Under the pieces are notes generated by a model, which saw nothing but the letters and a program-made list of their open reading frames with translations, was not told where the DNA came from and ran no database searches. The position numbers and the translations under genes are program-made. A stretch of 64,000 bases of DNA from Lysobacterales bacterium (GTDB lineage Bacteria; Pseudomonadota; Gammaproteobacteria; Xanthomonadales; Marinicellaceae): assembly GCA_026982315.1 (NCBI GenBank), contig JALSHI010000026.1:1-64000 (forward strand), written 5' to 3'. Position 1 is the first letter of the stretch, and each line of letters opens with the position of its first letter. Below, piece after piece: positions 22,076 through 23,504 of the stretch.

Positions 22076-22104
22076 TTGTTTGCGGGTAGTAGCTATGCTA
22101 TACC
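22076..22104 (+). promoter_or_regulatory. Probable promoter of the repeat-protein gene
   Basis: TTGTTT (22076-22081), a 17-nt spacer and TATACC (22099-22104) predict a start near 22111, just before the first of three hairpins. Both hexamers are imperfect. TAGC-TAT-GCTA (22090-22100) lies within the spacer. Confidence 0.4.
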
Positions 22105-22110
22105 ACAATT

Positions 22111-22230
22111 CCGGTCATACATTTTTGTATGACTTAGTGCGTCATTTTACGCACATGGGGCAATTCAGCCCCGCTTTTACATTGTTAACCACACACAATA
22201 TTTCATTGAACCAGACAAGAGGACACTCTC
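22111..22230 (+). ncRNA. Structured 5' leader with three consecutive perfect stem-loops
   Basis: Three inverted repeats are packed end to end: GTCATACA-TTTT-TGTATGAC (22114-22133), GTGCGT-CATTTT-ACGCAC (22137-22154) and GGGGC-AATTCA-GCCCC (22157-22172). They occupy the 5' half of a predicted 120-nt leader. A clean AAGAGGA ribosome site follows at 22217. No known riboswitch or leader family was recognised. They may instead be operators, or form a small RNA ending near the third hairpin. Confidence 0.45.
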
Positions 22231-22515
22231 ATGAAAAAGATTATCGCTATGGCTTTTATTATTGCTTTTACTCCCGCTGCCCAGGCAGGCTGGTTTGGCC
22301 TGAATACCGAGGACTGCCTGGCACAAAAGGTCCAGCAGGAAGGCACTGACAACAAGGTCCAGCAGGAAGGTACCGACAACAAGGTCGAACAGGAAGGTAC
22401 CGACAACAAGGTCGAACAGGAAGGTACCGACAACAAGGTCGAACAGGAAGGTACCGACGATAAAAGTCTGAATTGCGGCTTTCGTTTCTCTGTAAGGGAC
22501 TGGCTGGCGCTTTAA
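22231..22515 (+). CDS. Small secreted tandem-repeat protein, unknown function
   Basis: The 94-residue product has a clear Sec signal (MKKIIAMAF to AQA, cleavage before Gly20). A short head with WFGLNTEDC is followed by five 9-residue repeats KVQQEGTDN or KVEQEGTDN (33-77) and a tail with a second Cys (SLNCGFRF). The two mature Cys (C29, C82) flank the repeats and could form a disulfide closing the array. The repeats are highly polar and acidic. AAGAGGA precedes the ATG and a strong terminator follows, so it is a monocistronic gene. I recognise no family; binding or structural roles are both possible. Confidence 0.7.
   Translation: MKKIIAMAFIIAFTPAAQAGWFGLNTEDCLAQKVQQEGTDNKVQQEGTDNKVEQEGTDNKVEQEGTDNKVEQEGTDDKSLNCGFRFSVRDWLAL
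22327..22461 (+). repeat. Five 27-bp tandem repeats within the small secreted protein
   Basis: Five in-frame 27-bp units beginning AAGGTC, each encoding KV(Q/E)QEGTDN. Units 3 and 4 are identical and the others differ by a few bases, with the last ending in Asp instead of Asn. The near-identity suggests recent expansion by slippage or unequal recombination, so copy number may vary between strains. Confidence 0.95.
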
Positions 22516-22533: not shown

Positions 22534-22577
22534 TTCCCTGTGCTTGGGGCTTCAGCTTCAGGCACAGGGATTTTTTT
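22534..22577 (+). terminator. Intrinsic terminator after the repeat-protein gene
   Basis: TCCCTGTGC (22535-22543) pairs with GCACAGGGA (22562-22570), followed by seven T residues. This is a strong factor-independent terminator 19 nt after the stop. Confidence 0.88.
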
Positions 22578-22661: not shown

Positions 22662-23504
22662 ATGAACAGAACGGCCGGTAAACTCCCCGCGAATCACGCT
22701 GCTGATGAGGTTAAGGTCCGATCTTATCAGCGGGTTGTGAGTGCTTTGGGCACCAGCATTGCCCGCTTGATGCAGGTGGCGAACAAGCCGGTGCTGGAAT
22801 TTATTCCCAGCTTCAAGGCCGGGCTGATTGATGCTCTGCTGGCGGAAAACCCGCGCATGCCCATTAGCGAACTGGCCATTCGCACCGGTATCGATCGGCG
22901 TCACGTCAGTGCCTATTTGCGAAAACACCGTTTGCCAGCACGAAGAAGGCGCAATAAAATCGCGATGATTCTGAGCCACCTGGCAAGGGAAGCGCAGCAT
23001 ACGCCTGACGGCCTTATTGCTTGCAAGGGAGGCCCTCACAGTTTCGAAGCCATTTGCAAACGCTATGCCAGTGGTGACTATAGCCCCGGGGCGGTATTGA
23101 AAGAGCTGAAACGCCAGGGATGTGTTACCGAAGAAGCCGGGCATATTCGGTTATTGCGCCCTTATTTTCGGGCGCATGAAGACGACATGGCATTTCTTGG
23201 TTATGTGGTTTGGGTGATAAGGGAGTTGGTTAATACGGCTTTGCATAATCATCGTACCCCTGCCAAGGCGAACAGAAAGTTTCAGCGGAGTATCTATTCC
23301 TCGCAGATCCCTTTTGAAAAACGCGCCCAGGTGGAAAGGCAGTTAAAAGAATTGCTGGAGAAACAGTACGCTGAAATTTACCAGGTACTCAAGCAAAACG
23401 AAATCGATGTGGCGGTGGGAACATTTGAGCCAGTTGGGGTCAGCATGTTTCAATTCGGACCGTCAGAGTCGCTGGGGCATCACACTCAGCAAAAAGTCGA
23501 CTAA
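22662..23504 (+). CDS. DUF6502-like protein with a predicted helix-turn-helix
   Basis: A 280-residue soluble protein. Residues about 60-95 (MPISELAIRTGIDRRHVSAYLRKHRL) form a probable winged or simple helix-turn-helix. Then come SFEAICKRYASGDYSPGAVLKELKRQGCV and a helical C-terminal half with a basic KANRKFQRS stretch. The arrangement resembles the DUF6502 family of proteobacterial proteins of unknown role. It is probably DNA-binding. It stands alone between the repeat-protein terminator and rnpB, with AAGAGATGA before the start. Confidence 0.75.
   Translation: MNRTAGKLPANHAADEVKVRSYQRVVSALGTSIARLMQVANKPVLEFIPSFKAGLIDALLAENPRMPISELAIRTGIDRRHVSAYLRKHRLPARRRRNKIAMILSHLAREAQHTPDGLIACKGGPHSFEAICKRYASGDYSPGAVLKELKRQGCVTEEAGHIRLLRPYFRAHEDDMAFLGYVVWVIRELVNTALHNHRTPAKANRKFQRSIYSSQIPFEKRAQVERQLKELLEKQYAEIYQVLKQNEIDVAVGTFEPVGVSMFQFGPSESLGHHTQQKVD

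Follow-up and report, generated by a model that had tools for sequence, protein, structure and literature searches.

The closest described arrangement to the locus studied here is the pairing of a DUF6502 regulator (PF20112) with an exported DUF5666 protein (PF18914), which had been presumed before it was tested in this work. DUF5666 is mentioned in only four papers of the full-text literature searched, and neither DUF6502 nor the string GGIGGTGI was found there, although most subscription journals lie outside the scope of that literature and the absence is not proof. The RRNPP systems of Gram-positive bacteria are pheromone/receptor pairs in which a small exported protein is matched with a cytosolic DNA-binding regulator, the receptor being of the TPR type. 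RTX repeats have a period of nine residues, are Gly/Asp-rich with the pattern GGxGxDxUx, and belong to proteins that are exported, typically by type I secretion. The RTX nonapeptide repeats are the subject of a review (PMC3034196).

Our analysis of the window, the whole stretch of 64,000 nucleotides, identifies a two-gene module made up of a small repeat gene and a regulator gene, of which no description was found in the literature searched. Its features, with strand, are:

22099-22104, plus: extended -10-like box TGC-TATACC, predicted from the sequence; in the other same-genus pairs, the inverted repeat likewise follows a TATA box of this kind
22114-22133, no strand: inverted repeat GTCATACA-TTTT-TGTATGAC, taken to be the operator on which the paired regulator acts, and the same element as leader hairpin 1; present upstream of all five same-genus pairs
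22137-22154, plus: leader hairpin 2, GTGCGT..ACGCAC, which relatives do not share
22157-22172, plus: leader hairpin 3, GGGGC..GCCCC, not conserved in relatives
22217-22223, plus: AAGAGGA, resembling a ribosome-binding site (sequence)
22231-22515, plus: exported nonapeptide-repeat protein of 94 residues (ORF translation, relatives)
22231-22287, plus: putative signal peptide, residues 1-19, MKKIIAMAFIIAFTPAAQA, judged by eye; arrangement alike in relatives
22315-22317, plus: Cys29, kept in every one of the 11 small relatives aligned
22327-22461, plus: five 9-residue units, KVQQEGTDN twice, KVEQEGTDN twice and KVEQEGTDD once (sequence, Tandem Repeats Finder)
22474-22476, plus: Cys82, the conserved closing Cys (alignment of small relatives)
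22535-22570, plus: intrinsic terminator between the repeat gene and the regulator gene, 16 pairs followed by T7
22662-23504, plus: winged-helix regulator of the DUF6502 type, with which the repeat gene is always paired (tblastn, HMM, alignment, structure model)

The initial annotation proposed a monocistronic gene with a clean ribosome site and a strong terminator, encoding a 94-residue exported protein with five near-identical repeats bracketed by two Cys. The ORF, the Tandem Repeats Finder result and a signal-peptide-like start, from which export is predicted, confirm the protein, and the ribosome site and the terminator are both as described. The gene is nonetheless one half of a conserved pair with the regulator. 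The protein reads MKKIIAMAFIIAFTPAAQA, GWFGLNTEDC, LAQ, five units, KSLNC and a hydrophobic tail, the units following the pattern KV[QE]QEGTD[ND] and all lying between Cys29 and Cys82. At the DNA level, the array is a 27-bp repeat (22325-22458, 5.0 copies, 95% matches) whose near-identical units carry GGTACC palindromes, and it is the sole array of the 64 kb reported by Tandem Repeats Finder, which lists it under both period 27 and period 54. The window's genome holds no second copy of the repeat gene. An NCBIfam search gave nothing convincing, PADLOC (anti-phage defence) gave no match to the repeat protein, and no relative of it was found among solved structures.

The array resembles RTX repeats in its period of nine, its Gly/Asp-rich composition and its predicted export. 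However, neither the GG pair nor the D-x-U spacing is found in KVEQEGTDN, a signal peptide takes the place of type I secretion, and a Pfam search of the window protein returned no RTX family. The encoding of a small exported protein beside a cytosolic DNA-binding regulator recalls RRNPP, but the window pair belongs to a Gram-negative host, its exported partner is a Cys-bracketed array, and a TPR-type receptor is missing, with no TPR family in Pfam for the regulator and no TPR protein among the PDB fold matches listed. The likeness to the DUF6502 and DUF5666 pair extends to a regulator of the same family beside an exported G-[TS]-G protein that carries the peptide near its mature start. Here, the window protein differs in having the peptide amplified into a bare array bracketed by Cys, without DUF5666 domains, for which Pfam gave no match in it or in its small relatives. 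An exported neighbour of DUF6502 with a G-[TS]-G-type peptide is found at 20/20 array loci whose flanks are intact, with the qualification that the window units read G-T-D and not G-T-G. Large DUF6502 partners in eight genomes of the same order (G006, G010, G020, G004, G024, G077, G160 and G112) likewise have exported 9-residue arrays with the same core; unlike the window protein, they add flanking domains and repeats of 7-13 residues in a tail before the signal anchor.

The pairing itself is seen at every one of these 20 array loci, which range from the window's genus to other families in the order (two further array genes, cut by contig ends, were left out of this count). The adjoining regulators are about 250-310 residues long and are encoded on the strand of the array gene, the repeat gene coming first in the window's genus and the regulator first elsewhere. 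In Pfam, the window regulator passes the cut-off for HTH_24 only, and does not pass that of PF20112. It is, however, homologous to the regulators of G006 and G010 (tblastn E 4e-13 and 2e-15), the former of which matches PF20112 at 3e-26, and it aligns over its length with the canonical DUF6502 protein L071, which is part of a DUF6502 and DUF5666 pair in the window's own genome. An HMM built without the divergent regulators recovered the neighbours in divergent small pairs at E 1e-16 to 1e-28 and those in other families at 1e-30 to 1e-43, and matched no other ORF of those loci. A helix–turn–helix core is indicated by HTH_24 and by model helices 68-75 and 79-88; the AlphaFold model is confident and helical (pLDDT 83.9), with helices at this site. 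Its best partial matches among PDB folds are of the MarR and CRP/PrfA types, mostly winged-helix and none significant, and no peptide-binding domain was recognised in this fold comparison. Solved relatives amount to short, weak matches, mostly over the helix–turn–helix region.

A role of the regulator in anti-phage defence was considered and set aside, as its weak PADLOC match (mad1, residues 64-101) covers the helix–turn–helix alone, and a plasmid search gave no match that would suggest spread of the regulator by plasmids. Two DUF6502-type regulators stand in tandem behind the repeat gene in both genus mates, G001 and G002 (L021 3562-5353 and L023 3426-5220), where the window has one. RNase P RNA (class A, Rfam) lies directly downstream of the regulator in the window (23666 onward; L001 2936-3282) and likewise in two genus mates. 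In another genus (g3; L008, L027, L036, L038 and L039), the pair directly follows a gene that by eye is EAL-domain-like and faces a mazG-like gene, a context in which a link to cyclic-di-GMP is possible. One DUF6502 protein (L112, 578-1519, minus strand) has a C-terminal tandem repeat of its own, (NEFP)n.

Among 101 relatives, the repeat protein has clear homologues in its own genus (G001 and G002, each with two separate loci) and in two further genera of its family, and additional relatives were gained with a repeat-only query and a repeat profile. The 20 array loci have 3-7 units of period 9 with the consensus K-x-x-x-[DE]-G-[TS]-[GDE]-[NQS]. All small relatives share the order signal peptide, Cys, n units of nine residues, Cys, where n ranges between 3 and 7; one of them (L047) has just two recognisable units, and in some the mature protein starts with one extra copy. 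Their units include KVEQAGTDS, KVTEDAIGN, KVENSGSGN, KVGGTGTGN, KVGGDGTGN, KVGNDGSDS, KAEDGTGQN and KANDGTGQG. Larger relatives carry units such as KATENGTGN, KSSDDGTGN, KSVSDGTGD, VVGNGTGDK, VEGDGTGIA and VAGSGTGIE between other domains, and short repeats (AETEGTGI, SESEGTGI, IERNGTG, IERDGTG, IEKAGSG) in the tail ahead of the signal anchor. The suggestion in the initial annotation that this is a real gene for an undescribed exported factor thus gains support, since signal peptide, frame, repeats and both Cys are kept in relatives, and its expectation of variable array length agrees with the spread in copy number among them. A SASSATGDQ array in G505 was rejected as a member, being a different repeat and not beside DUF6502; it belongs to an unrelated large SASSATG(D/Y/G)(Q/R) repeat protein (L113, 1039-2220) that also has period 9.

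Purifying selection at the protein level maintains the array units. Between units within one gene, pS is 0.33-0.91 and pN 0-0.20 (14 genes). In G030, for example, the three KAEDGTGQ(N/G) units are written AAG GCG GAA GAT GGT ACC GGT CAA AAT, AAG GCC GAA GAT GGT ACT GGT CAG AAC and AAA GCA GAA GAC GGT ACA GGG CAG GGT, and synonymous codons vary as well among the cytosolic-tail copies of the larger partners. As synonymous sites vary freely and residues barely, selection acts on the peptide and not on the DNA. Units that are near-identical within a protein and different between proteins are as expected of a recognition sequence. The recent expansion read from the near-identical 27-bp units suits the window copy, the youngest of the set (pS 0.33), better than its relatives, whose units are old at the DNA level (pS 0.42-0.91).

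On a broader scale, DUF6502 was found in 73/200 genomes of the order, 99/369 sampled genomes of the class and 11/200 genomes of the phylum sample. Its neighbours across the family are predicted exported proteins, often with DUF5666 domains, and again with G-[TS]-G peptides: ERGMGGTGM and like copies five times in the partner at L082, DRGIGGTGI and like copies four times at L086, AQGGTGY/F twice at L063, L067 and L075, and SISGTGG at L062 and L066. The DUF5666-type start FGSIxVNG occurs in an ORF at 25 of the 30 highest-scoring canonical DUF6502 loci and is preceded at 17 of these 25 by a motif such as GGIGGTGI within 40 residues, and canonical partners match DUF5666 at 1e-39 to 1e-11. A heptamer-repeat test, whose thresholds were set after examples had been seen, was positive for 20/51 ORFs beside DUF6502, 5/52 other ORFs of those loci and 0/51 window ORFs of at least 90 residues. 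Only 2/30 loci of the canonical set were positive, their partners being mostly single-copy, and repetition is therefore not universal among DUF6502 partners. In this light, the window protein resembles the DUF6502 module with its peptide amplified and every domain gone.

The region upstream of the repeat gene suggests how the pair may be regulated. The transcript probably starts near 22111, judging from the -10-like box, which a consensus promoter scan did not call. Just after the -10 and beside a TATA(C/T) box, TCATACA-N4-TGTATGA or a version with one mismatch is present at 5/5 same-genus pairs. A whole-genome scan allowing at most one mismatch found two sites each in G001 and G002 and no others, every one of them at these genes, and in the window's genome (G000) the window site is the only one below two mismatches. 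Autoregulation by the paired regulator is the natural reading of this candidate operator. In three small pairs of genus g3, the corresponding position before the regulator is taken by another palindrome, TGCATA-N4-TATGCA, and no equivalent was found in the remaining pairs outside these and the window's genus. The three-hairpin leader noted previously does fold (22110-22233, -34.5 kcal/mol, z = -5.1, 0/200 shuffles as good), but just hairpin 1 is kept in relatives, and as it tolerates mismatches, it reads better as a DNA inverted repeat. The leaders of the repeat genes have no match in Rfam, and no terminator equivalent was called in the three other same-genus pairs scanned. Elsewhere, three genomes (L025, L026, L028) share a well-conserved hairpin stretch upstream of the regulator (CACAACCGTGGAGTTGTGC ... 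ACTCGCGTCGTAGCATTTACCCACGAG), also without an Rfam match.

Our preferred reading, to which we give a probability of roughly one half, is that the module produces a DUF6502-controlled, exported, disordered and multivalent peptide, as a stripped-down form of the DUF6502 and G-[TS]-G pairing. The cytosolic DUF6502-type protein (22662-23504) most likely controls the small repeat protein, and it would do so by binding TCATACA-N4-TGTATGA, overlapping the start of the repeat-gene transcript, and setting its output, with both the binding and its sign putative. The product would be exported through its signal peptide as an unstructured chain of 3-7 nonapeptide copies between two Cys, which may close the chain into a loop or join it to another chain. 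Each unit could then serve as a short recognition peptide and the whole protein as a ligand with several binding sites, either in the envelope or extracellularly, the module being a reduced form of the widespread pairing of DUF6502 with exported G-[TS]-G proteins. Against this stands the apparent restriction of the operator to the window's genus, with a different palindrome in another genus and a different gene order. The score of the window protein against DUF3060 (PF11259; 25.9 bits against a cut-off of 23.1) would also speak against disorder and suggest a folded solenoid. Period 9 and a similar G-x-x-N-x-V rhythm in DUF3060 would suit a structural protein built as a short beta-solenoid of stacked units, resembling DUF3060 or RTX and perhaps metal-binding, with the Cys capping or polymerising it. 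We regard this as improbable. The window member alone passes the DUF3060 cut-off, as 2/11 small relatives match at E<=1 and the second falls below it, and membership in that family was rejected. The family appears to lack a hydrophobic core and is predicted to be disordered: many units have no large hydrophobic residue (KSSDDGTGN, KAEDGTGQN) and hence offer no solenoid core, and the AlphaFold model of the repeat protein, drawn from 11 sequences, has no structure and no beta, with pLDDT 36-40 in the repeats, although such low confidence may reflect sparse data instead of disorder. The same motif, moreover, sits in cytosolic tails. That the repeat acts as DNA or RNA, a binding-site array or a mobile repeat with the protein incidental, might be suggested by the near-identical 27-bp units and their GGTACC palindromes in the window, but is scarcely credible and largely refuted by relatives in which codons vary freely while residues are fixed (pS far above pN in 14 genes).

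Two further explanations give the peptide a cytosolic reader. The array could be a multi-copy pheromone precursor, by analogy with RRNPP: cleavage at its lysines would release nonapeptides, which would return into the cell to bind the regulator encoded next to it. A small exported protein adjoining a cytosolic DNA-binding regulator, copies that are near-identical within a protein and differ between species, and the Lys that marks every unit boundary of most arrays all agree with this. Yet a simple precursor has no need of two conserved bracketing Cys, several arrays have no Lys (SNSDGTGGE, VEGDGTGIA), the motif of some partners lies in a cytosolic tail and so probably never leaves the cell, DUF5666 partners mostly hold one copy inside a large protein, and the regulator model has a helix plan different from that of a TPR-type receptor, so we consider a pheromone quite unlikely. 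Alternatively, DUF6502 may itself recognise the G-[TS]-G peptide before export, so that unexported precursor or the cytosolic tail shifts its hold on the operator and matches synthesis to export, the repeats lending avidity toward a dimeric regulator. The sole feature common to DUF6502 partners of unrelated architecture is this peptide, and the eight larger partners have repeats in both the pre-anchor tail, where copies vary in synonymous codons, and the exported part, both of which a cytosolic reader would see. The match of tail and exported units in the real pairing is reached by 8/40320 permutations, all ties with the maximum, but this test ignores phylogeny, and within one genus 8/120 permutations reach the observed value; phylogeny alone could make the units alike within one protein. 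The regulator has no recognised peptide-binding domain and the small proteins have no cytosolic tail. Putative recognition of the peptide by DUF6502 is plausible, and a regulator that reads it would account for the persistence of the motif beside DUF6502 across unrelated architectures and on both sides of the membrane, as well as for the likeness of tail and exported units. We hold self-monitoring of this kind only as a tentative alternative, one that is probably wrong.

Returning to the DUF6502-controlled exported peptide, the link between regulator and peptide makes DUF6502 and DUF5666, two families of unknown function, open to experiment, since the regulator is small and soluble, the nonapeptide can be synthesised and the DNA site is a defined 18 bp, with KVEQEGTDNKVEQEGTDN and the tail peptide IERDGTG as candidate ligands. 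A bolder and still doubtful generalisation is that DUF6502 proteins form a large class of regulators in proteobacteria, each binding directly to a short G-[TS]-G peptide of its neighbour, be it single, in an exported array or in a cytosolic tail. The window gene would be the purest form, an exported array of species-specific recognition peptides bracketed by Cys. If the peptide were the ligand of the regulator, Gram-negative bacteria would have a new way of sensing peptides, and a DUF6502 that reads it would define an undescribed peptide-sensing or self-monitoring regulatory system in these organisms.
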